Assembly (NCBI GenBank): GCA_003116995.1
Contig: BDSL01000043.1
Coordinates: 248,001 to 312,000 of the forward strand
DNA from: Yamagishiella unicocca
Lineage: Eukaryota; Chlorophyta; Chlorophyceae; Chlamydomonadales; Volvocaceae
Length of the DNA stretch: 64,000 nucleotides
Direction: 5' to 3'
Shown: positions 1-50,900 of the stretch, piece after piece
How the letters are laid out: each line of letters begins with the position of its first letter
Numbering within the stretch: the first letter of the stretch is position 1
Program-made: the position numbers and the translations under genes
The notes under the pieces: generated by a model
The model's input: only the letters and a program-made list of their open reading frames with translations
Told to the model about the DNA's origin: nothing
Database searches by the model: none

Positions 1-2581
1 ATGTCCGCCCACGTGTCGGTGAAGTCCATGTAGTAGCTGTCGTACTGGGGGCTGTACGAGATCGTGCTGAAGGCGTAGTTGATGTGCGTCAGCTTTGCCG
101 CGTAGGCGGTCAGGCTGGGGGGCACGCCACCTTGGTTGTACCTGCGCATCATGGATGTTGGGCAACGGCCCGGACAAGCTTGACATTAAAAACCTGCCCA
201 GCTTCGTTGGGGTAAGAGGAACACAGGGGATGACAACGAATACAGTTGCACAATGGTTTGGGATTTGACCTTCTGAACGGTATCTAGCCCATCCTAGCTA
301 GCTTGTAAGCTAACCCACCAGCGCCAATTCTCCAGGTATCCGATGACCTTGTGCGAGCTGGGAGACGCCGGGGACGGGGGCGGCGGCGGTGATGAAACGG
401 GGGAGGGAGAGGACGAGGGCGCCGGCGACGCGCTGGGGCTCGGGCTGGGGCTCGGACTAGGGCTGGGCCTTGGGGGAGGAGGGGAGCTGCTCGCCGAGGG
501 ACTGGGTCTGGGGCTAGGGCTGGATGTGTTGGGCTGGGGGTTGGGGGAGGGAGATGCGGTTCCGGAGCTGTCACCGTTGCTGCCGCTGCATTGGACGTTA
601 GCGGGCCAGTCACAGTACTTTCCTGAGGCGCTGAAGACGAGGCCGCTGGGGCAGCTCTGCACGTATGTCACGCCGTTGGAGCAGGTAATGTACGAGCCGC
701 AAGTCGCGTCGCATGGGTTGGGGTACATAGCGTTGGCTTTGCCGGAGCACCAGTTGGTGGTGGTGCAGGTTGTGGGGCTGGGTGAGGCACTGGGGCTGGG
801 GCTGGGGCTTGGCGAAGGGGAGAGGCTGGGGCTAGGAGAAGCGCTGGGGCTGGGAGAAGCGCTAGGGCTGGGCGGGGTGGGGCTGGGCGGGCGGGGACTG
901 GGCGGGCGGGGACTGGGCGAGGGAAGAGGAGAAGGGCTGGGCTGGGGGGTGGGTGACGGCGAGGCGCCGGACCTGGGCAGGATGCGGACGTCCGCACAGT
1001 TCCAAAACTCCTCCGGAAAGAGTGCCGCGGTGGCGCCACAGAAGCCCATGCCGATCTTGTCGCAGCTGGTGGGACCGGCTGCGGGGGTGAAGTCCGGGTC
1101 CTCCTGCACAAGCAGGATCAGTCCGACGGGCGACAGTCAAGGGACGACCAAGTAATAAGTAAGGCACACAGTGCAACGAAGCAAGGAAGATGTACGATGG
1201 TGATGGTGTAAATCATCCGTCTGATGATGCCACTAGTTGCTTGGTTGCCCTGTTCCTTTCGTCCAGACGGCTCGTCACCCTGTGCACATCCCCCCTCGCG
1301 TCCGCACCCAGCCACCCACCTCTACACATGGCAGCGCGCACGAGTTGGCAGTAGCATACCACCACTGCAGCACACAGTTGTCGCACGTCACGCCGGTCGG
1401 CAGCCGGTACTTCAAGCCGTACGTGTTGACGCCGGCGTAAGGCCCAATGGTCTGCTGGTAGACGCGGGCGCTGCCGTCGTTCTTGGCCGTGAGGTACCAG
1501 TAGCGGTCACCCGGGCGGACGGCGTCGGCGCGGGTGAGCCAGTGGGCGTCCAGGCAGGCCTCAGTCACGTCGGTGCTGGGGCACAGCCGGAAGGCGAAGC
1601 GGCCCCGGTGGTCGGCGGTGATGCTCACGGAGATCTCGATCTGGATTCGGACAGTTCCAAATCGTGGCAGTTGGGAAGGAGGTGATGGGGGGGCCTCTCA
1701 GGGTTGCTGATGGCTGGGCGGCATCGGACGGAATGGACGGAATGCCGTATCGTACACGCTACCCTATCCAACGAAAGGAGCATGGAAAAGAAATCGTAGG
1801 AAGGAAGAGCAAGGCGCAGATAGATGGGCAGGACCTGCAGGACCCACCACGTCGCCCTCGGTGTAGTTGGCCTGGATGGGGCGGGGCGCCATCCAGCGGG
1901 GGTTCGGGTCGTCGGCGCGGTTGCCGCACACGCCGAACGCGCCATGTGGCCAGAAGCGCGTGAAGCTGCCGCTCACCACGCCCACGCCTGCAGCGGAACC
2001 ATGTACGGTACGAATGGAGAGATGTCAATGGTTAGTGACGTACGCCGACCGAGGAGAAGGGAAGCAGACATGCGTGGGACGGGGATGGACCAGGAGAGAA
2101 GTACGGTTATCAGTTCGCAAGAGCTCGCAGGTAGTTGAGACAGGGACTCGTTCCTTAAAGTTGCTGAGGCAGCCGATATCCGAATCCAACATTTGAGTGC
2201 AAAGCAGACGTGTCATGTTATTCCCTAACCAATGACAACGCGTTGCAAGTAATCATGGTCAAAGCATTAGTAGTACGGTGGCCCCTGGTGGCCCCATTCT
2301 TCACCAACAACTCCGATTTGAGCTCCTATGTAAACATTGTTTGCACAACATGCAAGCGAATACGATGCATGCATCGAGCTGAATCCAGCCAGACATTCAT
2401 CGCAGTCTTACATACCTCCGGCGCTGAGCTCATTGGGGCTGTACTCGGTGTACGGGTCGGGGTCGTACAGGCGGGAGTGCATATTTCGCGACAGCGGGGC
2501 CGCCAGGAAGCCGTGGCCCATCACGATGGTGGGTGCGGCGGCCGCGAGGACCGCAGCCACAACCAGCAGAGCTCGACACAT
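1..2581 (-). CDS. Secreted AA15 LPMO-CBM14-GH18 chitinolytic fusion, left copy (3' part off window)
   Basis: This is the minus-strand twin of the complete gene at 6564-11019. Exons read complement(2416..2581), (1848..1987), (1320..1640), (319..1103) and (<1..141), all with GT-AG borders and the same phases as the other copy. The first exon encodes a signal peptide followed by HGFLAAPLSRN, so the mature protein starts with His, as LPMOs require. The next exons carry the AA15 signatures ADHRG and LPTGVTCDNCVLQW. The fourth exon holds the end of the LPMO domain (EEFWNCADV), a Pro/Ser linker, a six-Cys CBM14-like domain, a second linker and the start of GH18 (VIGYLENW). Every exon in view is open, so this copy looks functional rather than a pseudogene. 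Compared with the right copy, exon 4 is 9 nt longer and the linkers differ. The remaining GH18 exons lie outside the window, so completeness cannot be judged. Confidence 0.85.
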
Positions 2582-3540: not shown

Positions 3541-5609
3541 ATGCCAAGTAAACGTAGCATATAGAATGATATCTGATCAGCTGGAACTATAGCATTGATT
3601 GCTGTTGATTGATTACAAGCTCTAAGGCCCAGACGAGCCAGGAGGCTCATGCATGGACCGCTAACCGAGCAATTCGCAAACAAGGATAGAAAACATTTAC
3701 GTAAACATGCCCAAGTAACGCTGCTGTAAACCAACAAACTCAGGCTGGCTCCCCCCGGGCCCCCGGGCTTCCTGCATTACGAAGGCGGGGCGCCACGCCG
3801 TACGGTGGGTTCCCCTTCGCGTCCACTCTGGCACGCCTCGTCCCTACCATGCCAGGCCTCGCCTCGCATGGGTTTCTCTCACTGGGCAGCCGCGGCCGCC
3901 GCCGTGACCACGGGTCGCACCGGCCGGTTCTTTCGTGCCGGCATCCAGTTCTGCCCCCATAGGACTATCTATAGGCTCTACCATGGCCAGCTCGCCCTCG
4001 GCGCCGACGCCATGCTGGAAGTCGCAGCGGGACTTATCGCACGCCAGGTGGAACGGCCCATTAGAACACCAGCCAGGGTATCGCACGCCAGGTGGAACGT
4101 TATAACACCAGCCAGGGCGCACGCCCTGGACCATCATACGCATCCCTTCCTCGGAAGCGAAAGCCGGGATGTAAGCTCACCACCGCTAACTAACGCCGCC
4201 TCGATTTGGGCCCGCAGCCTGGGGACACGTATGCCCGGCGGCTCGAAGGGGGGCGCTTCCACCCCTCCTCCCGGCGGCGCTGCCAATTCCGTTCCCGGGT
4301 GCGCCACGCACCGCTCCTGCCCTTGGTGCCGTCGCCTGCCATGCTGCCCCGCCCGGAGCCAGAGGTTGCCGACCGCCCAGCAGCCGGTGCCGCTCGCCCA
4401 ACGGGCTCCTGCTGGGTCCGGAGCAGCTGCTTTGCCACCAGGAGGGACACCTGGGAGGTGAACTGCGCGATTGCCTGGAGCAAGCGGGCGGGCCCCGCCA
4501 ACTGGGGGCCACGGTACCGGCTGCAAGCCTCCCTCCGCCAGCCCGCCATACATACACGGCAGCTGCCTTGATAGTGGAGCACCACGAGTGCTCGGGAGTG
4601 AGGCAATCCTAAGCCAGCCGTGAATTGTCCGGGCGTTAGGCACTGCGCGAGTTGCGCGCGGCGGATTGCGAGTGCGTCGGCGCTCAATGCATGGTGTCTG
4701 CCGGATTGCTGGCGCGTCGGCGCTCAGTGAGTGGCGTCTGCCGGATTGCTAGCGCCGCTCGGCTGGGTCGACCCACCACTGGGCCCGGGCGGTAGTCCTA
4801 CTGCTTGGGGTCCAGTGCGCTCAAGAGCGCTCCTACGGGCAGCCTGCACTCAGGGGATTCCCAAATTTCTTGGTGATATCTCAAACAAATAACTGCCCTT
4901 CGTGTGCAGTGGATGCGCTGCAGCAGGTGAAGGGGATGCTGGGTATTTTGGGAGAGGGGTACGACGCGGTCCTGTACGACCGAATACGGCGGTAAAGTCA
5001 CAGCAGGGATGTGGGTGCGGTAAGATGGGGGCGGGGACAGCAGGCGAGCCCCGGCCCCGGGGCCCGGGGAAGCGAGATGGGTCGAGCGAGAGGCAGCAGG
5101 TCAGGGTTCCTCGAGGTGCCTCGATGGTCGTCCAAGAGGATCAAAGGCTCTCCTTGCGGGTTCTCAACTGAAAACGTTTCACTAAACCACTCGGGGCCCT
5201 TGTATGTTGGAGTTCGTCTAGACATAGCAGCCAGGGGCGGCGCTTGGCCTCCGGCTTAACTCACACAAAAAAGGGAGTGTACTTTCGAGTCGTTTTTACC
5301 CTTCCGTGCCGTCCTTCGGGTTTCTTCGCTTGTTCCCCGGAGCCACAGAAATAGGGCACACAGGTAACGGGTGGTGCGGCAGACGACGGAAACGTGTCGT
5401 GCGGCAGACGACGGAAACGGCTACTGCCCTGGCTCGCCACAGGATTCATAAGTAACCGTGCGGATACTGTGCCTCACAGTTGCAAGCGTAATTCAGTAGT
5501 GGTGGCCAAAGGTACGCAACATATAACAACACGGGTCCTGGCAAGCTGGATGCCATCAGGCTTGCTAAAGTTCCAGCTTAACGAATGTCACTCCACCTGA
5601 TAAAGTTCA
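3541..5609. other. Spacer between the inverted-repeat arms, no gene recognised
   Basis: Open frames here (for example 3805-4461 plus and 4134-4643 minus) overlap one another on opposite strands and resemble no family I know. Short tandem duplications are visible: a unit of about 44 bp at 4036-4118, a 39 bp unit at 4661-4755 and a 27 bp unit near 5371-5422. The shared promoter region of the two divergent genes flanks this spacer. Confidence 0.5.
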
Positions 5610-8600
5610 TTTGGCTTCATGTTTGGGAAATTTAGCAATAGCAATGCACCCACAGGCGACGGCTTCGTAACGGTCGCGCAGCAGTATGTCCGACTGGTCG
5701 ACATGGCCGTGGCAGTATGCAGCGACCGCCTTACATCATTCGATAAATGCAAGTGCCAATTTGAACCAATATTTGTTCATAAACTCGTTTGCGAGCCGAG
5801 TAAAATGGCGAAGTTCTGGGAAGCCGGCATGGTTCAAGCCTTAACGTGGTGTAATAAAAATGTAAGGTGCTGACATGTTCCCCAGCTAAAGTGATTGCTG
5901 CAGCAGCGGAGCAAAGACCTGTGCGTCGTCTTGGCATTCTCGGGCATTCAGGCGATGTATGGGGCAGCGCTGTGCAGAGGAACCATCACCAAAACATACA
6001 TTGCTATGGCAAGATGGCTGCTGTCAGAACCTATCACTGTCCCGGGCAGGTGGTCCAGCTGCGGTACGGGTGCTGACTTCGGTTCTCACTCGAGTGAGGA
6101 GTGACCACTGCCTGCCTCGGCCTGCCGTACAATGTCCGACATCAAGCCTGTTGCCTTCTGCACAAGCTGGATGTGGTATAAAAGCTCATTGATCCTGAAT
6201 AACCCTTTATCAAGCAAATTCACATGTCAACCGCTACCGATTGTACTCTTTGAGGAAGTGCTAAGAATCCCTATTAATCTGCGCTCCGCTGTCACCCCAC
6301 GAAAGCGTACCTGCTTTTAGTTAAACTGCAGTTCCTATCTGAAGCCTCTGCAATTAAGCGATACGGTAAGCAAGACAAGTCAGCGGCTGCGTCTCATAGC
6401 GTCTGTGAGAACCTTTAGATCTGTCTATCGCTCGTACCGATCGGCTTCGGCTTCTACATATGTATACTGTATCTGCCCGTGCATCGCCCATCCACCTACT
6501 CGCCTGTCACCTCACCAAACCCATCCACCAATCCATCTCCACCGCCGCAGGTCATCGCACATCATGTGTCGAGCTCTGCTGGTTGTGGCTGCGGTCCTCG
6601 CGGCAGCCGCACCCACCATCGTGATGGGTCACGGCTTCCTGGCGGCCCCGCTGTCGCGAAACATGCACTCCCGCCTGTACGACCCCGACCCGTACACCGA
6701 GTACAGCCCCAATGAGCTCAGCGCAGGAGGTATGTAAAACTGCGATGAAATGTCTGGCTGGATTCAGCTCGATGCATGCATCGTATTCGGTTGCATGTTG
6801 TGCAAACAATGTTTACATAGGAGCTCAAATACGAGTTGTTGGTGAAGAATGGGGCCACCAGGGGCCACCGTACTACTAATGCTTTGACAGTGATTAGTTG
6901 CAGCGCGTTGTCATCGGTTAGGGAATAACATGACATGTCTGCTTTGCACTTAAATTTTGGATTCGGATATCGGCTGCCTCAGCAATTTTGAGGAACGAGT
7001 CCCTGTCCCTCTTAACTATTTGCGAGCTCTTGCGAACTGATAAACGTACTTCTCTCCTGGTCCATCCCCGGCCCACGCATGTCTGCTTCGTTTGTCCTCG
7101 GTCGGCGGTTACGTCACTAACCATTGACATCTCTCCATTCGTACCGTACATGGTTCCGCTGCAGGCGTGGGCGTGGTGAGCGGCAGCTTCACGCGCTTCT
7201 GGCCACACGGCGCGTTCGGCGTGTGCGGCAACCGCGCCGACGACCCGAACCCCCGCTGGATGGCGCCCCGCCCCATCCAGGCCAACTACACCGAGGGCGA
7301 CGTGGTGAGTCCTGCAGGTCTGCCCATCCATCTGCGCCTTGCTTGTCCTGCCTACGATTGCTTTTCCATGCTCCTTTCGTTGGATAGGATAGCTTGTACT
7401 ATACGGCATTCCGTCCATTCCATCCGATGCCGCCCAGCCGTCAGCAACCCTGAGAGCCCACCCGTCCCATCACCTCCCTCCCAACTGCCACTATCCCAAA
7501 CTGGCCGGATGCAGATCGAGATCTCCGTGAGCATCACCGCCGACCACCGGGGCCGCTTCGCCTTCCGGCTGTGCCCCAGCACCGACGTGACGGAGGCCTG
7601 CCTGGATGCCCACTGGCTCACCCGCGCCGACGCCGTCCGCCCGGGTGACCGCTACTGGTACCTCACGGCCAAGAACGACGGCAGCGCCCGCGTCTACCAG
7701 CAGACCATTGGGCCTTACGCCGGCGTCAACACGTACGGCTTGAAGTACCGGCTGCCGACCGGCGTGACGTGCGACAACTGTGTGCTGCAGTGGTGGTATG
7801 CTACTGCCAACTCGTGCGCGCTGCCATGTGTAGAGGTGGGTGGCTGGGTGCGGACGCGAGGGGGGACGTGTGCATGGTGATGAGCTGTCTGGACGAAAGG
7901 AACAGGGCAACCAAGCAACTAGTGGCATCATCAAACGGATGATTTACACCATCACCATCGTACTTCCTTGCGCTGTGTGCCTTACTTATTACGTGGTCGT
8001 CCCTTGACTGTCGCCCGTCGGACTGATCCTGCTTGTGCAGGAGGACCCGGACTTCACCCCCGCAGCCGGTCCCACCAGCTGCGACAAGATCGGCATGGGC
8101 TTCTGCGGCGCCACCGCGGCACTCTTTCCGGAGGAGTTTTGGAACTGTGCGGACGTCCGCATCCTGCCCAGGTCCGGCGCCTCGCCGTCACCCACCCCCC
8201 AGCCCAGCCCTTCTCCTCTTCCCTCGCCCAGTCCCCGCCCGCCCAGTCCCCGCCCGCCCAGCCCCACCCCGCCCAGCCCTAGCGCTTCTCCCAGCCCCAT
8301 CGCTTCTCCCAGCCCTAGCCCCTCCCCTTCGCCAAGCCCCAGCCCCAGCCCCAGTGCCTCACCCAGCCCCACGACCTGCAGCACCACCAACTGGTGCTCC
8401 GGCAAAGCCAACGCTATGTACCCCAACCCATGCGACGCGACTTGCGGCTCGTACATTACCTGCTCCAACGGCGTGACATACGTGCAGAGCTGCCCCAGCG
8501 GCCTCGTCTTCAGCGCCTCTGGAAAGTACTGCGACTGGCCCGCCAACGTCCAATGCAGCGGCAGCAACGGTGACAGCTCCGGAACCGCATCCCCCTTCCC

Positions 8601-9125
8601 CAGTGCCCAGCCCAGCCCTAGCCCCAGCCCCAGTCCCTCGGCGAGCAGCTCCCCTCCTCCCCCAAGGCCCAGCCCTAGTCCGAGCCCCAGCCCGAGCCCC
8701 AGCGCGTCGCCGGCGCCCTCGTCCTCGCCCTCCCCCGTTTCATCACCGCCGCCGCCCCCGTCCCCCGCGTCTCCCAGCTCGCACAAGGTCATCGGATACC
8801 TGGAGAATTGGCGCTGGTGGGTTAGCTTACAAGCTAGCTAGGATGGGCTAGATACCGTTCAGAAGGTCAAATATTCCCAAACCATTGCGCAACTGTATTC
8901 GTTGTCTTCCCCTGTGTTCCTCTTACCCCAACGAAGCTAATGTCAAGCTTGTCCGGGCCGTTGCCCAACATCCATGATGCGCAGGTACAACCAAGGTGGC
9001 GTGCCCCCCAGCCTGACCGCCTACGCGGCAAAGCTGACGCACATCAACTACGCATTCAGCACGATCTCGTACAGCCCCCAGTACGACAGCTACTTCATGG
9101 ACTTCACCGACACGTGGGCGGACAT
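5610..9125 (+). repeat. Right arm of the large imperfect inverted repeat
   Basis: This is the counterpart of 1-3540 in the opposite orientation. It contains the first five exons of the complete chitinase gene and its upstream region. The right end given here is set only by the window edge on the other arm. Confidence 0.85.
6177..6184 (+). promoter_or_regulatory. Candidate TATA box of the right chitinase copy
   Basis: TATAAAAG lies 387 nt before the start codon at 6564 and is conserved with the minus-strand copy at 2974-2981. No transcript start is known, so this is an inference from position and conservation. Confidence 0.45.
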
Positions 9126-11019
9126 CGGGGCCTGCCTCACCGGCTCTTGCCCTGCGGTGAGCGCCGTGTTTTGCGGAGGCAGAGGGATGGGATGAAGAAC
9201 TTTATGAGCCCCAGGGGTTACCAAAATCGTCGGGCCGGTCCAATCACATTGGATACTGGCCTAGTGTGCGCTGAACTTTGGACTGACGGGTAGCCACCAG
9301 CCAGTGGGATAGCCAACCACATTTCACCAATCGACCAACTAACTGGCGCCTACCCTGCCCGCCGCCAACTCCGCCCGCTTGCCCTCTGCCTGTCCTGCCC
9401 AATACGAAGACCTGCATCGCCCTCAACTCCACCTGCCCGGGCGACAACCTGGCCATGATCCCAACCACCAAGACAGCCGCCGCGGCCTGCCCGTCCACCT
9501 GCTTCAACAGCGGCGGCGCGCCCGGCTACAGCCGCGTGTGCAACACCGTGGCCAAGGACATGTCGGTGCCGCTGCGCGCGTGCGGCCACTACGCCTACGT
9601 GAAGCAGTTCATCGCCAACTCCGCGCCACACGTCCGCGTGCTGATCTCCGTTGGCGGTTGGTACGACAGCAACCTCTTCTCCATGGCGTCCGCCCCTGCG
9701 TACCGCAGCCGCTTCGTGGACTCGGTGCTCGACTTCCTGGACACCTTCGGCTTCGACGGCGTCGACTTCGACTGGGAGTACCCCGGCTTCGAGCACGGCG
9801 GCCAGCCGCCGTACGGCAAGACCGACGGCGGCAGCCCTGACGACGTCCGCGACTGCACGGCGACGACCTGCACGTACGGCGGTCGTAGTACAGACGGCGC
9901 CAACTTCGTCGCGACGCTCAAGGAGCTGCGTTCGCGCCTTGCCAGCCGCCTCAGCCGCCGCGGTGAGACCTACCTGATGACCATGGCGGGCCCAGGCGGC
10001 AATGACAAGCTGGAGAAGATGCCTCTGTCGTCCATCTGCTCGGAGCTGGACTGGATCAACATCATGACCTACGGTGAGCCGGATGCGTGGGTGAGGGCTC
10101 AGGGCGGTATGGCCGCAGCAGCATGTTCGTAGTCAGCGATGGTAGCTGGTAGGTGGCGGGGCAGGTAGGCCTGACTTGGCTTTTCTACCTCCCAAGATGC
10201 TTCGAATAATGCCCATCGTGCCACCGTCAAAACTAAACCCGTTCCTGCATGGCCCTTGACCCAACTACCCATCAGACCTGCACGGCGCCTGGGACTCAAC
10301 GACCAACCACCAGTCCGGCCTGGCCGATCCCTCCGGTGACCAGCTGACCGTGAGCGCCATCGTGGCCGAGTACGTGGCGCGAGGCTGCCCGCGGTCCAAG
10401 CTGGTGGTGGGGGTGCCGTTCTATGGAAGGTGGGTGCGGCGGCGTTGATCGTTGGGGACGAACGAATGAAGGGGGCGGAGGGTCACACTCATACATGCGT
10501 ACCGGGCACGACCTGCTGCAAGGTCGGGATCGACAGTGGACGGGTTGCGAGGGGCGGCAGCCGCGGCGGACAAGCAACGAGCGTGGGCGGTGCCAGGAGC
10601 GACATGGTAGTAGTTTTGAAATGCGCAAATAAATGCCCAAAACGTCGTCGTCACACCATCCCTACCGTGTGCTGCTTGCTTACAGGAGCTTCAAGGGCGT
10701 GCAGGCCGGTCCGGACACCTCACTGCCGGGCTACCGCCAGCCCTTCTCCGCCACCCTGACGGCGCAGCAGGGCTCGACTGTCGCCATGCCAACGCAGAAG
10801 GCCGTAGCGGGCCTGGGATACCGCACCATATACGACTCGGCGCGCAACGCGTCGTACGCGTACGACGCTGCGTCACAGACCTTCATCTCGTACGACAATG
10901 AGGCCGCGGTTGCTGCCAAGGCGGACTTCATCCGCCGCGAGGGCCTGGCGGGAGCCATGGTCTGGGCGCTTGGGCAGGAGACGCCCTCGCTCTGGTCGGC
11001 ACTGACCAGCGGGCTATAA
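6564..11019 (+). CDS. Secreted AA15 LPMO-CBM14-GH18 chitinolytic fusion, complete copy
   Basis: Eight exons (6564-6729, 7165-7304, 7515-7835, 8041-8816, 8985-9156, 9410-10073, 10276-10429, 10686-11019) join in phase to 908 aa. Residues 1-22 form a signal peptide; cleavage exposes His23, the N-terminal ligand of an LPMO copper brace. AA15 marks are ADHRG with His113 (mature His91), LPTGVTCDNCVLQW and NCADV near 244-248. A Pro/Ser linker follows, then a CBM14 (peritrophin-A type) domain at about 320-385 with YPNPC, CPSGL and CDWP, a second linker, and GH18 from about 457. GH18 carries the DxxDxDxE motif FDGVDFDWEYP (acid Glu648) and MTYDLHGAWD. The expected roles are oxidative and hydrolytic cleavage of chitin outside the cell or in the wall; substrate is inferred from the families. 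Each domain reads as intact. The divergent neighbour at 1-2581 is a near-identical duplicate. Confidence 0.9.
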
Positions 11020-12211
11020 TAAACTCGAGGGAGTCGCGGCCCGTTCATTCGAGTATGGATAAAATAACCGAAGGAATTGCCGAATGTGAGTAGTACACGT
11101 TAAGTATTAAAGTACGAAGTGATGCGCGTGGTGAACGACGCATTACTTCTCATGTTTTAGGGAAATAAAAGTCGACGTCTGCTTGTCGCTGCCCCTATGC
11201 CCACGTGCATGCGGCGAACGGACAATTTTGAGCCGCCGTCCTTTCGTCCATTATTCATACCCGGCCCTTTACCTCGGCCACAGAGGAGAGTGCGCCTTGC
11301 CTGCTGCAGAGATTTCGCAGCACTCGACGTAGGTATTGGATATGCAGCTGATTCTCGGGTGGAGGCATGCGAGCACTGTTGAGGGTGCCGCAGATATTGC
11401 TATCTAGGGTGTGACGCCTTGGGTTAGGACAGTAATAGACAGGGTGCAGTATATATGTAGGCAGTCACCAGCAATTCGTACGGAGCGATGGGTATGCGTG
11501 TGGGTTGTGGCCCATCTGCTGAGTGCATGTTAGTGTCATATCCGAGCACCCTGCGCACACACCACGCACAACTCCCCTTGGGGTGGTGGCTGCTGCTACT
11601 TTTGCCTGTACGACCCCGACTGTTCTTGACTGGTGTCTTGATGGTTTTGCCATTGGTGCGGTTGGGCTGGGTTATTGGCTCTTCTCCTTTAGTGTCCGGC
11701 ATGCGGGTGCCCTGAGGTGCCAAGCCAACACGACGATTGGCTGGCGGGCATGTGTTCGTATATAGCAGCAATAGCGGTGGTGTTGCGTCGTTGTTTGTAG
11801 AATGGCAACGCAGGCAAGAAGTTCTGGGTCAAGGTTTCTTGTCGAAACCCTTTGCGGTGCCCCTAGAACCTCATTCCTAGCTTGTTGAGAGGTTCATATA
11901 AGACATATAGGTCCGGTAACCTTAAATGAGCTGGTACTACTGTACATAAAATGGACCAACTGATATTGTTTCGGCCAGATATCACTGTTGCTATTCAAGA
12001 GCGAGTTGGAGGTACGTAACTGGCTGGCTGGGGATGATGTCCTGCTGTCAACGGGCTGCCTTTTACATTTATTGCTTGGCGCCTCGTTGCTTGCTTGGCG
12101 TACTATTGCATTGCACATGAAAGCTGTAACGCGTTATCGTTCTCCTTGTCGCTTGATCCACTGATAATTTCCAGTCGAAGGGACGGGGAGACAGTAGTAT
12201 GGGTAATAATT

Positions 12212-12275
12212 GTTACAGTGGCCCCAAACCTTAAGGCAGAGCCATCGGGCGCATCGCCTGACCATCAGGGTGCCA
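12212..12275 (+). repeat. Dispersed GTTACAGTGGGCCCC element, short copy
   Basis: It shares the opening string GTTACAGTG, an AGAGCCATCGGGCGCATC block and spacing with five other sites in the window (14804, 25397, 29038, 32660, 58655). All copies read on the plus strand as given. It has no coding potential and the family is not recognised. Confidence 0.7.
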
Positions 12276-14803
12276 ATACATGTCGTCGTGGCCTCGGTTA
12301 ACCTCGCAAAAACGCAAGCCATGCATACTTAAGAACAACTAGCCTGTGATCATCTGCGTACGATGCGTTCGGTATGGTACGGCATACCCAGGTATCCGAG
12401 CGAAGTTGCGCCCTAGGTAGACGACGGGAGCCCACCACTGGGAAGATGCATATCTGGATGTTTGACCCCGCCCTTGGACCCCGCCCTTAACCAACTGACT
12501 TCATTCGCTGCCCTGCGCCCCAGGGGCCCCACCCACCCATTCCTTTACTCCAACATTCCGGTGGCGTTTGATCCATGTTGAGACTTGTTGCCATCCAAAC
12601 CTTCCTGGCTTGTTCCGTTCTGGCCGTTTATAAACCTCTAAAAAGCCGCGAAAACCCGGGAGAGGAAGCATTAGGAGGCCCACTCGATAGGCACCAGATA
12701 GGCCAACATGTCCAGCCTCACATCAAATCGTGTTTTCCACCGTGCAGCTCGAAACGGGTCCTGAGATTGCGGCCAGCTGCATGATGCTGGAGTTCCGTCA
12801 CTGTAACGTTACTTCATCACTCATTAGAGGGCGCGCGTTCTTTGGTGCGTTAATCTGCGGGTGTTTGCGACGGGCCCTCCTTCGAATGCGATAGGAGGTA
12901 GGCAGGTAGTGTACTCATTCGTTGCGTGTGCAGTGTTATTTGCTGAATGCAGTGAAGTAGGCGCTGCCTCGTTACGCAAGCCTCCAGAAGCGCCCACGCG
13001 CGTACCTTTGTATATAACTGCAGCAGGCGAGCCGAGAGGGAACCGCAACGGCACCCACCTGTCACCGGCAGCCGCAACCAACAGCAGGGCCAGCGGCTCC
13101 GTCCCCCGCGGGTTCCTCAGTGTGTAGCTAGAGGCCGCTTGTCATATCAGGCCTACCTCAGGAATATGTGTGCGTGCGGTGCTGCTGAAAAACTACCCGT
13201 CGCCGCCTTCCCACCTATCGCCAAAAGACGTTGGATCTGTCGTGATGACCCGTGGGTGCACCTGGTGGCCCCCGACACGTCACTCGCGTCACTCTGACAT
13301 GTTTCTTAGCAGTGGGTCTTGCAGGGCTCCTAAGAGAGTCCCCCGCCTACTGCTGGCCTTGCCTACGCAGCAGCGTAGCTTGTGTGCCATTCCCTTTGCC
13401 ATCCCGAATCCGGCCATCAACCATCCGATGTGCGCAGCGCGCACCTGCGTGTAGCTGGCGTGGCGCTTGCGAAGCAGTGCCTGCGTGCGTGGTGCTTGGA
13501 AAACAGGCCGTCAATGCGCCCCGCCACGGGCCGTCCTATTGAAACAGGACGTGTACAAAGACGACGTATTGTATGTGCCATTATTCGCTCGCTAGCCATT
13601 TTCCCTCTTTCTATTCGACGCAGCGGCGGCGAGCGATGGCGGGATGGTGGATGGCGGGATTGTATGGAAGCGATGCAGGGCCTGCGCGCGGAGGTTGGGC
13701 AGAACTAGGTTTGGGCAGAACTAGGTTTTCAATTTCGGAACAGGCTGGTTGACCAACCTCGTGCTTGAGAAGGTAAATGCAGTGATTCAAGAAGATAACA
13801 AGATCGCTGCAAATGATGGCTTTACAGGCGAATGGTGGGTCAGTTGCCAGGCTATTACGACTGTGATTATAATTGGAGAGCGGGGCAACCGTCGACGGGG
13901 CCCCGCCACGCGGATCGCCCGCACATCATAGCTCCTTGCTTGGCTGGCTTCACAGCCTCTTCCAGTTGGAGATTTACTAGGGCGCTTACGAATTAGGTTT
14001 GGGAACGAGCGGAACCACCGTTACCATGATGTTGGCCCGGCCTGGATCTTGAACGGTGGACACGCTGGAGTCAACCAAGATGTATCGCTAGAAGCGCTGC
14101 CGTGGACGAGGCTGGTTAATGCGAAGGGAGGACCCGACGGCCATCTAGGCCAAACCTGCTCTGCTGATATACCGCGTAGCACGCACTATGTGGCGCTGAT
14201 GCGGTTCAGGCCAGGTTGCTGGGACCTTGAAGCCAACCGCCCCGGGGCCGAGCTCGAGCGGAGTGAGTCTGATATGTTTGCGCGACTTAAGGAAAACGGA
14301 CAGTCGAGGATGAGTACGCTTGAATGGTACTGCTTGAATGCCCAGCCCATGCCGAAACGAGGGCCACATCGGGAACAAGGGATGCTGAAGGCCATGACGA
14401 CAACAGTTACAGTGAAAATAGCGTGCTTACTTTACCAAATCGTCGCCCATCGGAACGGCACCTGAAAAGGTGGAGCCGATGGAAGTCCCCCCGTTGACCG
14501 CACATGAGAATAATATAACTTAGTTCATCTCTCCCTTGCTGGTTTTTGGCGCGCCCCCTGCGCCCCCTGACTGAACGGTTCATGGGGATATGGACAGGAC
14601 CAGGGAGGGCCCTACGTCTGTAACGTGCCCATGCTAATGAATAATTAGCGAGTCTGGGCATGTTACACCGCTGCGTCCAGTTTGTACCCACCTTTGTCTG
14701 CACCGCTGCCGCCTGTTTCTTTTGCCATCAGCGGCCAGTGGTGACTTGTTGGTTCTGGCCTGTGTTGTTTGTGCGTTACTGGTCGGCCCTTTCGCTAGTA
14801 ACT

Positions 14804-15327: not shown

Positions 15328-18300
15328 CTACTCGAAGATCGGTGAAACCTTAAAACCACCAAACCTGTCCGCATCTATCAGATGCAATACGATTAGGTCG
15401 CACACACCAATAGTAATGGACACAGCCGACGTAACTGCACTTTGCACAAATGTGGAGGTTGGTGCTAGGGCCGACCCGTTGACCCACATAACCGTTTGAG
15501 CCACAGCAATTGCAATGTCTTCGAATGCCACTTCGAATAAAGTAGCTAAGGTGAAGCCCACCGGAATCTCATCACACTTTTCGGCATTTTCACGTTCCCA
15601 GAGCATGCATGTCACGTGGATAAAATTGATCAGCATTCCACAAAATGAACCTGCCAAGAACATGTTGCGCGCATGAACAGCCAAGTTATCAGTAAAGGAC
15701 GCTGAGTCTGCTACATCCAGTTGTTTGAGGTAGGATGTCCCAGCACCACAGACACACAGGGCAATCACCTGTCCCAATAACAATCCTGGACCCAATACGG
15801 CTTTCAGTTCGGGCGATATTATATCGTCCGTCGAGGTGGAAAAAATGTACAGGATGGGTGCAATGGTGCATTTTGCCAAATATATCCATCCAATTGAGAT
15901 GACAACATTGACGTTGCCGTACTCCGCGACCTCACTAATGAAGATCCAGTTTGACACTTCATCGTAAATGAGGAGGCCACACCGTGCCAAAAACAGAAGC
16001 ACATTCACCACCTTGTTTTTCTCATCCCCAGAAACCCTAGTTACGTACGCACTCAATGGTTTCCTGCAGCAGATGTAATATATCATGTTCAAGGCAAAGA
16101 CAGTGCCCACAGTTGCCCCCCAGGCTACGTCGGCGACATGTTTCCTGAATGACTTCCCATCGGGGCCGCAAAGGAAGCTCTTGTCGACGTCTCCGATGAA
16201 TAGATTGTATTCATCAATCCTGAGCGCAGCAGAGAAGACATCCAATGTGTAAACAACCCTGGAAAGACAGTGGTTGGAGGCCGTAGATGGCTTGGTAAAG
16301 ATGCTGCAGACGGTCTTGGAGTCATCTATACGACCAAACCAGCCAGAAGTCAACTTTCCATTCTCGAGCAAGGCGCATACTTTTACCGCATCGCCTAAGT
16401 TCAAAGGACCTGCCAAATTATAAGACATAACATCCAAGCCTAACGGGCCGTGTACCGTCTTGATGACGAAGTCCCGGTCGTCTTCTGACAACTCCCTAAG
16501 CGAGAGCTGCACCTTAGAGTTACGTAGGTCATACGTGGTGTTTGGCTGATATTGACGAGAAATCAGTCCGCATAGCTGCGGATTGTCTCGGAAAATAGTT
16601 ATGGGCGCCGCTTTGAAACTGTCCGGGAGGACGCCCACAAGTCCTTGGCCTCTGTAGTCAATCTCCGGTGCAGCGCAACAATCAGCGAACTCCAGAAGCA
16701 CATTGGTACTGCAAACCTGGCCAATGGCCACATCTCTTATTGCCTCCATCACGTCCACAGTAGACGAGCATTTTGTGCGGTTTCCGCCGTCGCCATCACC
16801 AACAGCAAGATCCATCAGCGATAGGCCCATGCAATACTCCGCTGCTTCTGCTGAGCGCCGCAAGAAGGATGCCATGTCTCGAATTGATGAGCCCGCTGCA
16901 AGCCCGTTGTCCATTGTCAGCGTTTCCACGAAATCAGTTTGCGCGGTTCTAATCGAGGTTTGGGCCTGCGCCCGCAGCAGCATCTGCGTACACCAAATGT
17001 ACACGCATGCATGCACGCACACATACAGTCGTACGTTAGCGTGCTAGTTTTGTTTTTGAAATACGCGCGCTCACAATAGAAAGGAGCCAATTGAGATGTA
17101 ACGTAATGGTGCTTGGGCCTATCTGCTGTCTGATGGCGTGGTAGCTCGTGGAGGTCAGCAGGGCACGCACGCATGCTAGAAAGGTCAGCACGCAGCAGCC
17201 AGCAGCCAAGATATATCGATTTTATTGGACCTCCCGTCCGTCACAAGCAACGCCTTTCCCTTAACATAAGCGATGGCTTACTAGCACCGGCATACCCGTA
17301 ATGTAGTGTGTATTGTTAATAAAATAACATAGAACAATAATGTACACACATACAACGCACGCACGATGGATGACCGGCACGCAGATTACCTGGCTCATCA
17401 GCAGGTTTCGGAACTCTGATGCCCGGCTTATGATTGCTTGTGAGCCAAGGAACGAGTCGGTCATCTGGAGCACACCAGCTGCTGCTCGACCGTCCGCGGT
17501 ATCTTGAAGAACAATGGGGAGCATACTTATCTCGGCATTTGGGTACTGATTGGATGCTGGCAGACCTTTAAACCATCGCTCAGTGTCCTCCAGCACAGCA
17601 TCGGCAACATTACCCGACAAAAGCAAGCGGACGATCATTTCCGTGGAGTAGCTTTGAGACATGCACCCCTGAAACCGAAATGCGCATATACTACTGATGT
17701 TGTTCGTACCGTCATATTCCGCAGCAGTAAGCGGCCGTGGCAAACTGACCCCTGTTGTTCGTGCTCCTTGGGTGACGGACATGTTCCAATGGATGCTGAA
17801 CATAGACTCAAGGCGATTTCTGAAATTCGTAGTGCAGTAAACAGCTGCTGTCGGAGATGTGTAGTAGAGAGTGACTGGTGTTCCCCTGTCTATGGTTACG
17901 TTTGTACCATTGCTCCCATACTGAAGTAAGATGTCAACAGCACCACAACCTGCCGTGCACATGATCGACGATGATGTATTGTTAGAAGGCGTATTTCGGG
18001 ACTGCAAAAACGGCAGCGCAGGATTACTACTGCTCGGGCTGTACCAACTGCTAGTAAATGTCTCCAAAAATATGACACCCGGATGTTCAATTGTGAACCG
18101 AAGTTTGTTACTGACGAATGGTGCCGATTGGTAGCTATGGGTCCACGTGAAGGAAAGGGTGGAAGCTCCAGCAGAACAGTATAGCTGCTTCCTGGCATAG
18201 GTTGACAAATCTTTTAGCGAATCATAGTGGCGCGCCAGGAAAGCTGGAGTGTCCAATGTGCACATGTTAGCTCCTTCCGTGCAATCAGTCGTGTCCTTCA

Positions 18301-21300
18301 CAGTTAGGAAGTCACTTAGTGCCTGCACCCACATTTGCAAGCACGCATGCACAGGTAGGTCCATCGATCCATTATGTCGCCATCACACATACACGTCGCA
18401 TGTAACTGTAGCAGGTATATATATATACGATGATTGTAGGGCCCTTGCGAACACTGCCTAAGAGGCACAGAGCGCTCTCGCAGCATCTCGAGAAGTCTAC
18501 CTTTGGCTGCTCGCCTGCCACAATATATAATAAAGACATACCAATACAACACATGCGGAGGTAGGAGTACAACATGCATGCATGAACATATGTACCACTC
18601 ACGCGTTAGCTAGTTCAGTTCTTTCTGCCGGCTCCATCTAATAATTCACGGACATTTTTACTACAACCATTATTGCTAGCTAACGCTGATAGTCAGGCAC
18701 ACACGCACTTTATTAGAACGAGCACTTATAATAACAACATAGAACGCATGAAGAATACCCACCAGTGTTTTTTGTGCCTTGTAACTTGGTGTCATCTCTG
18801 CAAGTAATAAGTATGTGAATGAGCAAGGTTAGTTGGTTGCTTGCTTAGGGTTTCGTTCGTCAGTAGTTAAATGGTGCTGATTTTGGGATCTAAATGTAAT
18901 AATATATTGTAAATCTGGAAAAACCGCCGCTTCCTTTCAGCACGTTATTCGTGTATGCCCTATGCACTACCGGTATTTGAACTTTGTAAGAAACACCGAA
19001 ATTATATCATATATACGTATACAATGACTGCCGTGCGCATAGGTTACGTCTGGTATGTTTCGGTCAAAGAGGAGATCCGCCGTAGGTCTACGTACTTGAG
19101 GAAGGCGAGGCTAGGGGGCAGGTAGGGAGCACAGCACGCAGCAGCGTAGCGCCCCGTAAAGTGTATGGCTATGCGTGGCGAGTATAGCTAGATAGTTATT
19201 GACGCTTATTATTTACCAACAACCTACCGGTATATACCTACCTACCGCGCGATCATCGCTTTATCACAAAACGGAACACCACTCGCTTACATAGCGGTTA
19301 AAACTCTATCACGTTATGTAGCCAGGTACGTATCGGTGTAGCTCAATTGGGAGAGCCCGAAAAATCCAATCCTTGTGGCCTGGGAGATCCCAGCAGGTTC
19401 AATTCCCACAAGGTGCGGCACAGGAGATGCAGGTTCGAATCCTGCCACCGATCCCGATGGTGCGGGCAGCCAATGGACATCGGTGTGGTTAGGGAGGACT
19501 AACTCTAGTATGAGTAGTTGGGGCTTAGGCCAGAGACGGGAGCATGTGCGTCCTACGGGCGGCTCAACCATCAAGTACACTCAAGTACACCAAGCATGGC
19601 GGCATGCTGGACATGGAGCTGGCGGAAGACCGGTTTCCGGAGAACGCTTGAATCTCAATAATTGATACAAATATGAGTTAGGGATGTGGCAGGAGCACCA
19701 GCCTCCGGCGAGTTGCTTGCACTAACTGGTCGTGTTCCACAGCGACAATGTGGCGTGGGCCTTAGCGATATGAGGTGGATTGGTACTGGTGGCGCGAACG
19801 TATAGGGTGTACTGATGCCCTCACCGCCCCGCCCCCTTAACACATGCCAGGCCTAGTGCCGGCGTAATGTAATACTAATAATAATAATAGCTAGGTACGT
19901 GTAGCTAGCTCACCGTTATCGCAAATGACAGCTGCTATGTAAGCGCACTCATCCACGGAGTACCCGCCGCCAATGGATTGCTTGCCGGCCATGAAATCTC
20001 CTGAGCACTCCTCCAGCTGGGAAAGGTTGGTCACCAACGGACATGAAAGGTTGAAGATGCCACCGGATACCAACTTGCTGAGCAAGGACGACGTCGAATT
20101 AAGGGCGCGCTTCCGATACAGAAGGGATACATTGGTCCCCACTCCGTAGCCAGTTCGGAAGCCAGCTTGTTTGCAGGCTGCGGCTGCGGCCCCATTCCAC
20201 AGAAAACCATTATTGCTCGGAGATGTTCCTTGACGTAGGCAGACAGGGTACACAGGCGTGTCGGGAACATTCTTATTCACCGCCCAGACGAACGCTACTT
20301 CACCCGCAGCAGGTCGGATTCCGGACGACGACAGTGGGTCCAAATGCGCGAAGGGCTGGAAACCTTGTACTTGTCCAGGAATACCAGTGATGACACAGCG
20401 CCCTGCGGATAGACGCGTGCCCAGACATATTCAAGCGATGTTCATTTTTAATACGCAAGCAATCAAGCAATATCAAGCAACAACCGCGGAAGAAACATAC
20501 AGGCAGCGGGATCTGACCTAATCGTAATTAGCGGCTATATATTTACATGCATGCATCATATATATGTTAGTTGATAGCCGGCGGGTTAGTTCGTGGAGTC
20601 TCCGCCGCAGCTGCTAGCTAGTCGCTTTTTCGCCACTTCCCCTTTCCTCGCTCCGAGTACCAGCTGGTAGGTGTTGCTTGGCTAGCTGGACTCCTCCGTG
20701 CGTGCCCGACCTCAGCGAGCCTGCTGCAGCCCCATCCACCTTCATTCGGTGGGGGTTGGGTCAAGCGAGCCCTACACGCTGCTGGATATTATGGTTCTCA
20801 TGTATGCTGTGGTGCTGCTGTTCATCACGCACGCGCGCACTGCATGCCGCCGGTGCAGCAGGTGCAGCAGGCAGAACCAGCGTACCGGCGGCCTGGGTGT
20901 AATCGTTGCCCCCATCGATCTTTCCGTCCGACCTTGGTGAGGGGGGGCTTGTGCGTGCTGGCTGGTGATGACGGATGGTAATAAGCTACGCATACAGCAG
21001 GGGTACGTAAAAGCTCGATGCCATGTACATACTTCTTACATACGTACCCGTACATGCATCCATGCATGGCATGCGCGCACGCACTTGCATCGGTCCGTTG
21101 CTTGCTAGCTAGCGCTACGGGTTAATTATGTTCTGCTTCAAGTAAGGTTATTAGCGAAACAACTGTTTAAGTACTGACGCTGGCGGTGAGGCACTACCAA
21201 GCTGCCCCCTGCTCCGGAAGAAACGGTTGCACGCCAGGCATACAGGTGCGTGGGTGTTGCGTGAGTGCCTGCTGCTACCGGCAAGTACGTATTTTATTTC

Positions 21301-47983: not shown

Positions 47984-50900
47984 TCACGCGCGCGGTTTGC
48001 GCACTGCCAGCAGCTTGATGTCGAACAGCAGCGTCCGGTTGAAGTCCTGGAGCGTTTGGTTGTCCAGCACGAAGTCCAGCGCGCGCTGACCCCCCAGCTC
48101 CGATGGCTGCGGGCCGTACCTGCTCGGACAGGGCAGGGTAAACCAAACAGGATCAGACAGGATTAGGCGAATCAGGAGCCACAGGACGCACACAACACAA
48201 CCCCACCCTCTTCCCCGCCTTGACACTCACCCCCACCCCCACCTGTACCGCGATGACCGCGATGGCCGCTCTCCCATAGCGCACCAACTCCCACAGTTTT
48301 CCTGCTAGCGCCCAAAACCGATTCTGCGAAAACTTTACGTGCGTCGCGTGGGGTCCTCGCTTCTTTTCGTCTCGGGGTCCTCGCCGTAGCCGATATAGCT
48401 TAGCCGCCAAAGGTCATCTTACGACCTTCGGCTTTCGTATCCCCAACCCAGTTCTCCAGCATGCATCTCAGAACTGCTGTTTTTAAACGGCTTTTTTCGG
48501 ACATCCACGGGTTTCCCTCGAACCCCACCTGTACTTGTAGATCTTCAGGTCCTGAGAGAAGAACTCCGAGGTGAAGCGCTGGCTCCTGTCCAGAGGGTAG
48601 CCCAGCTCTTGCAGCTCGCCGGGGACAACCACGCGCACGATGCCTGTGTGCGTGTGTATGCGTGCGTGTGCGCGTGTATGTGTGCGTGTGCGTGTGCGTG
48701 CGGGGGGGAAGGGAGGGGGCGGGGGGTGGGGGGGGCCAAAGAAGACCCGGTTACACGACGTAGGAAACGGAGGGCAGAAACGGAGGGCAGGGGATGGTGA
48801 GAAGACCCGGAGGGGCTGGGGGGGGTTGCAAGAAGACCCGAGCGGGGGGGCGCGGCGGTGGGGAGGAAGAGCGCACGGCCCTGACAACCAGGCTAGGTGC
48901 CGTCACGCCAGTGGAGGAGGGAGCCTACGATGCCCGCACCAAAGCCGCTCCGCCGCTGCTGCGCACCAGGCAGGCGGCTTGCGGTCGCATCGCGAGTTGC
49001 GCCCCAGCGCCCACAATGCTGGCGAGATCCCGTTGGCTTCGCGGCTCCCTCACGTCATTTCCGCCAGAGGGTTTTCCCCCGCCCCCTCCCCCCCACGGCT
49101 ATTCCCCAGCAGCACCAGCCCCCCTCCCCCGTCCGGCCGGAGTATCAGCATAAGGCCCTTCCGCTCAAGCCACTGCCCGACCGCGCACACATCCGTACGT
49201 ACGTTCCCGCTCATGCCACCCGCCCCGTCGAACCCCATCTCCGGCGCTCTGCGCGCTCAACCTCGCATCGCCCCCAAACGGTAAACACAAGCCAGGTCGC
49301 CAGCCATCGCCGCACGCGTCTCCCCCCTTCCCCGTACTCCACGCATCCCTCCCCCGTGCTCCACGCGGCGCGCATACACCTTTCCTTCCCTCCCGCCCCG
49401 CCGGCCCACCTCCTGCGCGCATGTTTTCCACCGCCAGCTCAAACGCCTTGATCGCCTGGGGGAGCGACAGGCCCGGGGGGGAAGGGCCGGGGAGGGGGTT
49501 TGAGGAGAATCCGCGAATCCACGGCCGACAAACCAAGGCGGTGGGAGCGGGGTTGTGGTTGGAGTGCGACTGGGTGGCTGCGTTCCGATTCTCTAACGGA
49601 CGAACCGACGTGTCATTGCCTAGATAGGAAAGCCAGCGCGGGGGCGACGAGTACGACGTCACCATGCTGGTGTCATCCCCGCTCCCTTCCCTGCTTTCCC
49701 TGGAGCCGGTCCCCCGCACCCAACGGCCCACCGGGTGTTGCGAGTAAAAATAACCCCTGGAGACCTAAGTTGGAATCCCTTTGCCAGCTTTGGATCTGCC
49801 AGGTCAGGTCACGACGGATCTCCTTGCGAAGCCCTCCCGAGCTGCCTACAGCCCCAACCACATCCTCTCCGCACTCCACGCACCTGCCCGGCCCCCAGCT
49901 TGAACTCGTACGGCTCATCCCGGACGCTGGTGTTGTCGATGCGCTGGAGAGGGCGCGGGGGCGGGGGGGAGGGGGTTTTGCAGGCGGGCGGGGGGAGGAG
50001 GGGTTTTGCAGGCGGGCGGGGGAGGGGGGAGGTGTGTTGGTGCGGGGCTGGGGGCGTGAGAGCGCAGGGCGCGAGGGCCCCTGTCTGGGGAGTGCGAAAC
50101 GTGCGGCCGCGGAGGTGGTTGCGGGGGGGGGGCCGTATAGGGCCCGGGTGGGGGGCCGGCCGGCCACCCGGAGGAGCCAGGGCAGCGAGCGAGCATCTGC
50201 GAGGGTCCAGCGGTTGCGCTTCAAGAGCCCAAGTGCTTCAGCCTGTCGTGTGCACGGTGCTTCCTATGTCGTTTAACGGGGTCTCCTTCTCGCCCACACA
50301 CCCCCCTGAACATCTGCCCTCCGTTTCCTATTTCGTGTCACGGGGTCTCCTTCTTGCTCCTCCCCCAACCGCGCGCCCGACTCCCACGTGCCGTCCGCGG
50401 GCCGCGGCTGCTCGTGCAGCAGCCCGGGGAGGAGGCGGCTCGCGACGGACTGGCCACCGCCCCACCAACGGACTGGCCACCGCCCCACCAACCTTGCCTG
50501 CATCACGGCACGGGAGCGGTAGGGTGGCGGGGTATGGGGGGGGGTTGCGAAAATGAACATATACGCGACGTGAGCAGTATAGTGGCGGGTTATTGAGGGG
50601 GGATGCAAGGCATGTAAGCGAGGTGTGATCCACCAGGTGGGGAGCTCACGGAGCTGTCTCCCCTGGCTGCCAGCAACCTCGTCGGTGTAACCCCCCCGCC
50701 CCTCACCACCTCCCCGCCCCTCACCACCTCCCCGCCCCTCACCACCTCCCCGCCCCTCACCACCTCCCCGCCCCTCACCACCTCCCCGCCCCTCACCACC
50801 TCCCCGCCCCTCACCACCTCCCCGCCCTGACAAGTGTGCGTTTCATACCGTAACCGGCCTTTCCGCCCTGCCCCCCGCCCTGCCCCCCCCTTGCTCTCCG

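Follow-up and report, generated by a model that had tools for sequence, protein, structure and literature searches.

The locus described here raises the question of whether a green alga encodes an oxidative and a hydrolytic chitin-degrading enzyme as one polypeptide and, if so, at which chitin that polypeptide would be directed. The window is a stretch of 64,000 nucleotides from Yamagishiella unicocca (Chlamydomonadales, Volvocaceae), equal to positions 248001-312000 of contig C43 (BDSL01000043.1) in an assembly of 133.4 Mb and 1415 contigs; positions given without a contig are those of the window. Near its start lies gene A (6564-11019, forward strand), which combines an AA15 lytic polysaccharide monooxygenase (LPMO), a CBM14 module, and a GH18 chitinase. 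We interpret its product as a modular chitinolytic enzyme (AA15-linker-CBM14-linker-GH18) of a small family, with foreign chitin, particularly that in the walls of attacking fungi, as the most likely target; we regard this reading as probable. The safest statement, judging from sequence, is that the product would bind chitin and cut it by oxidation as well as hydrolysis.

Gene Model and Domain Architecture

Rebuilt from the DNA, the eight exons of gene A join into 908 codons and a stop, with GT-AG borders at all seven introns and every junction in phase (Table 1). Exon 4 (8041-8816) is a single open frame (8008-8841) that runs from the end of the LPMO (EEFWNCADVRILP) through CBM14 into the start of GH18 (SHKVIGYLENWRW), and the LPMO and GH18 halves are therefore joined without any splice site; no other observation argues as strongly for one polypeptide. 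The exon borders are repeated in a second fused gene of the same genome (gene B) and, with one additional intron in the GH18 part, in a third (gene C). The sequence indicates that the locus is one real gene.

Pfam identifies LPMO_10 (PF03067; residues 23-248, E 9.4e-14, 52.9 bits, cut-off 23), CBM_14 (residues 328-381, E 8.2e-12, 45.5 bits, curated cut-off 22.1), and Glyco_hydro_18 (residues 458-895, E 3.8e-71, 240.8 bits, cut-off 29.6), an architecture far beyond chance. The segment between the catalytic domains, CBM14 included, is 31% Ser and 31% Pro. The product is probably secreted: its first residues resemble a signal peptide, and cleavage is placed directly before the residue that would become His1 of the mature protein, on the basis of the -3/-1 rule.

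Catalytic Residues and Predicted Structure

Because PF03067 by itself cannot tell AA10 from AA15, the LPMO of gene A is assigned to AA15 on the basis of its best solved relative, the Thermobia domestica AA15 structure 5msz (E 6e-14 with the single sequence, 1e-24 with a profile; best of the three PDB sequences listed per search). This top match, together with the placement of gene A beside a Scenedesmus protein in the AA15 tree, shows that the domain is not an AA10. The copper-brace residues are His23 (mature His1, 6630-6632) and His113 (mature His91, 7545-7547, within ADHRG), and both are invariant in all seven aligned AA15 domains; in the alignment to 5msz both match, as does the Ala two residues ahead of His91 (Ala89). 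The axial position is occupied by Phe in all three fused genes (A, B, and C). For TdAA15A, the axial residue is reported as Tyr184, and axial Phe is described for most chitin-active AA10s and for TdAA15B, the latter under a heading on chitin-specific LPMOs (passages of PMC5823890). The axial Phe thus favours chitin as the probable substrate of the fused genes.

The GH18 part matches a solved chitinase at E 1e-80 by sequence search and carries the catalytic motif DGVDFDWE (residues 641-648, with Glu648 at 9776-9778), which is kept in all four genes of the family. For structure we turn to an orthologue, protein P0001 of Astrephomene gubernaculifera: in its AlphaFold model (of P0001, not of gene A) the GH18 part is mostly of high confidence, weaker at about residues 711-780, and a PDB search with it gave 229 matches at E <= 0.001, of which the best 50 are enzymes of GH18 type. 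The AA15 half of this first model is poor, and the PDB search listed GH18 matches only, so that it is uninformative on AA15; a second model, built with 62 aligned sequences, reaches a predicted local distance difference test score (pLDDT) of >=70 in 18 of 24 ten-residue blocks across residues 41-280.

An earlier note on this DNA, made from the letters alone, had proposed exons joining in phase to 908 amino acids (aa), a single AA15-CBM14-GH18 polypeptide with a signal-like start, and key residues in each domain. The GT-AG introns and in-phase junctions bear out the first point, and the Pfam domains with the uninterrupted exon 4 the second; as to the third, His1, His91 of ADHRG, and DGVDFDWE could each be located by codon.

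A Family of Four Genes

Profile searches of the genome were run exon by exon, such that all counts are lower bounds, and gave at least three matches to LPMO_10, at least 15 to GH18, and at least six to CBM14. Four genes of the family were modelled, of which A, B, and C are fused and have intact frames, and D has no LPMO. Gene B (C43:250581-246118, reverse strand) is a near-copy of A in head-to-head orientation, with eight exons as in A, 911 aa, and an intact frame, and it extends beyond the window; this second fused copy, at window positions 1-2581, is absent from the earlier note. Gene C (C29:360364-365578) has nine exons and encodes 1042 aa with AA15, two CBM14 modules, and GH18. Gene D (C29:355019-358619) has six exons and encodes 730 aa with two CBM14 modules and GH18; no part of the models is less certain than its start codon, and an LPMO domain was found neither by the LPMO_10 search of the genome nor in the gene model. 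Gene D lies about 1.7 kb upstream of gene C, and their GH18 domains are 95.1% identical; an intron after MAGPG in the GH18 part is present in C and D and absent in A and B. Given that A, B, C, and the Astrephomene protein all carry the LPMO, the simplest reading is that gene D lost it. Two additional, more distant GH18 places occur at C121:59669-60436 and C55:613993-614823, with no CBM14 or LPMO_10 match on either contig.

Substitutions, counted by the Nei-Gojobori method, are what purifying selection on both the AA15 and GH18 halves would give. Between A and C, the ratio of nonsynonymous to synonymous change (dN/dS) is 0.166 for AA15 (dS 0.377) and 0.196 for GH18 (dS 0.436); between A and B there are six synonymous and no nonsynonymous differences in AA15, and eight synonymous and five nonsynonymous in GH18; for C and D, compared over GH18 only, dN/dS is 0.224. 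Introns 4-6 of A and B (within 8817-10275 in gene A) are 98-99% identical and thus more alike than introns 1-3 and 7 (89-95%) or the flanks (84-88% in aligned columns, gaps aside, over at most 1000 bases upstream and 1500 downstream), which suggests recent local gene conversion between A and B over introns 4-6.

Relatives and Phylogeny

With the AA15 half as query and protein length limited to about 500-1589 aa, five matches were obtained from 7994 scored, one of which, Astrephomene P0001, carries all three Pfam domains. The search with the GH18 half returned 1804 matches; among the best 120 of these, which were examined, PF03067 is present on one, again P0001. Identity of P0001 to gene A is 70% and 72% for the two halves, and among these 120 it is followed by P0006 (41%). 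The nearest named algal relatives among the matches listed are Astrephomene and Edaphochlamys, both Chlamydomonadales; the Edaphochlamys debaryana protein (P0016) is 39% identical to the GH18 half and, by Pfam, has GH18 and no LPMO domain. Named proteins near the top of the same 120 are mostly from chytrid fungi, at about 37-42% identity.

In a GH18 tree of 48 sequences, A-D and P0001 form one clade (support 100/100), which Edaphochlamys joins (96/95), within a larger clade that includes chytrid and metagenome sequences (100/98). C and D are sisters and adjoin A and B (98/98; 94/99 in a 39-sequence rerun that left out nine long, animal, or oddly composed sequences), and in the rerun Edaphochlamys joins at 92/89. 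The AA15 tree (55 sequences) comprises genes A-C, seven hand-picked proteins, and the first 45 motif-fitting sequences among the best 120 of 424 matches to an AA15 profile, a search whose length limit excludes fusions of the size of gene A. Here A-C, Astrephomene, EukProt P0155, and Scenedesmus P0002 fall in one clade (98/95). The AA15 and GH18 halves therefore seem to have separate histories, and the simplest reading is that the fusion arose within green algae. The earlier note's proposal of eukaryotic parts, rather than a bacterial AA10-GH18 gene, agrees with both trees, in which AA15 groups with Astrephomene and Scenedesmus, and GH18 with Astrephomene and Edaphochlamys; the fusion is likely independent of the bacterial AA10 fusions.

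The closest named non-algal relatives of the GH18 half are mostly chytrids (among the best 120 of 1804, with lineage checked for seven names). We do not claim transfer of this half from chytrids: the algal sequences are not nested in the main chytrid clade, only Spizellomyces, which has a long branch, lies near them, and the approximately unbiased test does not reject monophyly of the chytrids (p-AU 0.168, 39-sequence rerun). P0002, from Scenedesmus sp. PABB004, is deposited as Mutyh and has its AA15 domain at the C-terminus with a signal-like stretch just ahead; it is probably two genes merged by annotation.

Comparison With Known Systems

The AA15-GH18 fusion type is not new. The AA15 paper of 2018, the first author of which we take to be Sabbadin, already states it for green algae. 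According to a passage of that paper, some AA15 domains are fused to GH18 in Chlorophyta, Bacillariophyceae (diatoms), and tunicates, and others to GH19 in Oomycota and Haptophyta (PMC5823890), and multimodular AA15 proteins with GH9 or GH18 were noted in 2021 (passage of PMC8615602). The novelty implied in the earlier note is therefore not upheld, the more so because the Astrephomene protein with the same three domains is deposited; its statement that AA15 proteins are mostly single-domain or linked to a carbohydrate-binding module is true but incomplete, given the published GH18, GH19, and GH9 fusions (PMC5823890 and PMC8615602, in the passages cited). The published Chlorophyta, diatom, and tunicate fusions likewise unite AA15 and GH18 in a single polypeptide, and the phylum of Yamagishiella is among those named; the passage gives neither sequence nor module order (PMC5823890).

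Astrephomene P0001 (Agub_g8935, 1098 aa) has LPMO_10, CBM14, and GH18 in the same order as gene A, but with two CBM14 modules, where gene A has one, and longer linkers. Another counterpart is the bacterial enzyme Jd1381, the host of which is presumably Jonesia denitrificans. With Jd1381 (AA10-CBM5-GH18), which is covered along with CBM14 modules on AA15 proteins in a 2023 review (passages of PMC10154629), gene A shares an N-terminal LPMO, a chitin-binding module, and a C-terminal GH18, although it has AA15 and CBM14 in place of AA10 and CBM5. The joined form of Jd1381 outperforms its separated parts, pointing to intramolecular synergy, and it is described as the only bicatalytic LPMO-chitinase characterised (passages of PMC10154629). 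The Thermobia protein (5msz) has in common with gene A the AA15 domain, in which His1, His91, and Ala89 align; the Thermobia AA15 sequences, however, consist of the LPMO domain alone, and TdAA15A has axial Tyr, unlike the Phe of gene A (passages of PMC5823890).

Among the papers listed by searches of the open-licence literature, itself only part of the whole, none was found on an AA15-GH18 fusion in a volvocine alga or on Volvox, chitinase, and LPMO in combination, and a passage search of the main text of a Volvox RNA-Seq paper (PMC5704591) did not find "chitin". What is added here is a family of four genes, with A and B as a near-identical inverted pair, and D without LPMO yet with a GH18 95% identical to that of its neighbour C. 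LPMO-chitinase fusions have been little studied, and this genome provides a eukaryotic counterpart to Jd1381. Most useful among the new findings is the adjoining pair C and D, with and without LPMO, which constitutes a natural comparison; it makes both the contribution of an attached AA15 domain and antifungal use by green algae directly testable.

Proposed Role of the Enzyme

The gene A product may operate as a self-contained chitin-degrading machine. Removal of the signal-like start would leave His1 free to bind copper, and the Ser-Pro linkers, if glycosylated, could anchor the product within the extracellular matrix. The enzyme would be held on chitin by CBM14; AA15 would make oxidative nicks in the crystalline polymer, and GH18, being tethered, would hydrolyse from the newly made ends, as measured for bacterial Jd1381. 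The target would be foreign chitin, chiefly that in the walls of fungi, such as chytrids, that attack the alga. We prefer foreign chitin to chitin of the alga's own because Chitin_synth_2 (PF03142) yielded zero candidates in its genome (exon-by-exon search; of 14 named genomes, the control matched only four, all of them prokaryotic), and we would favour antifungal defence over feeding because a passage on Volvox describes its matrix chitinases as acting "against fungi" (PMC9818292). Certain points weigh against this reading: with exon-by-exon searching and a control limited to prokaryotes, the Chitin_synth_2 result is no proof of absence; genome searches for Chitin_synth_1 (PF01644) and GH19 (PF00182) gave no match, but no control matched either, so they are uninformative; a GH20 place on contig C3, comprising three matched pieces, fits chitin feeding too; and the defence role rests on one cited sentence on Volvox (PMC9818292).

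The most serious rival, which we nonetheless consider unlikely, is nutritional scavenging, whereby environmental chitin is degraded and the alga takes up the amino sugars. The enzyme has what an attack on crystalline chitin requires, and the GH20 place could finish the degradation, but the relevant passage of PMC9818292 gives volvocine chitinases no role other than defence. Another rival is that the enzyme remodels the wall or matrix of the alga itself, perhaps at hatching, by acting on an endogenous chitin-like polymer, and the Ser-Pro-rich linkers do resemble matrix glycoproteins; given zero Chitin_synth_2 candidates in the exon-by-exon search with its prokaryote-only control, and a description of the Volvox matrix as mainly glycoprotein (passage of PMC9818292), such a function appears distinctly improbable.

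A different kind of objection is that two adjoining genes, one for an AA15 LPMO and the other for a CBM14-GH18 chitinase, were wrongly joined in the model. Gene D is a stand-alone CBM14-CBM14-GH18 gene in the same genome and Edaphochlamys P0016 has GH18 without LPMO, but a single open exon spans the junction, and the fusion is kept in three genes of this genome, copies B and C among them, and in one of Astrephomene; we reject separate genes as very improbable. Returning to defence against fungi, a bolder version, which we advance as speculation with little expectation that it is correct, would make the fused form a weapon against fungi outside the cell, with AA15 driven against chytrid walls by photosynthetic oxygen or peroxide, and with the LPMO-less gene D serving soluble or amorphous chitin; if true, a eukaryote would possess an LPMO-chitinase defence linked to light.

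Features of the Window

Table 1. Gene A, its exons and modules, and the inverted duplication that includes gene B (window positions).
Feature	Position	Strand	Basis
Gene A, start codon to stop, 8 exons, 908 aa	6564-11019	+	GT-AG, in phase
Signal-peptide-like segment, 22 aa, stops directly before His1	6564-6629	+	Translation; cleavage inferred from sequence
Exon 1 (6564-6729), AA15 portion, opens with mature His1 (6630-6632)	6630-6729	+	Gene model
Exon 2, AA15	7165-7304	+	Gene model
Exon 3, AA15 core: Ala89-x-His91 (ADHRG), CDNCVLQW motif	7515-7835	+	Gene model, alignments
Exon 4: AA15 C-terminus, Ser-Pro linker, CBM14, Ser-Pro linker, first GH18 residues	8041-8816	+	Open frame 8008-8841, Pfam
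Axial Phe codon, in exon 4	8137-8139	+	Codon positions
CBM14 (peritrophin-A) module and a few preceding residues; Pfam residues 328-381	8374-8556	+	Pfam, codon positions
Exon 5, GH18	8985-9156	+	Gene model
Exon 6, GH18: DGVDFDWE (9755-9778), ISVGGW segment, start of MTYD	9410-10073	+	Gene model, Pfam
Exon 7, GH18	10276-10429	+	Gene model
Exon 8, GH18 C-terminus and stop	10686-11019	+	Gene model
Gene B, near-copy of A in head-to-head orientation; the window includes exons 1-4 and the greater part of exon 5	1-2581	-	Genome search, blastn
Stretch around gene A matching gene B surroundings inverted, four pieces, outer limits	5563-12449	+	blastn
Spacer separating the two inverted arms, upstream of A as well as B	3595-5562	.	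blastn coordinates

Pfam searches with 10 of the longest other open frames in the window gave nothing above the curated cut-off; 17264-18382 (reverse strand) has a weak Oxidored_molyb match (17.1 bits, under the cut-off of 24). The open frame at 50691-51869 (forward strand) has no Pfam match and starts with PPRPSP repeats, which resemble either a simple repeat or a matrix protein rich in hydroxyproline. At 55005-56026 (forward strand), long open frames arise from a repeated, minisatellite-like stretch (LLAYQHVAPFVLRCCLPINTWLHSSCAV...).

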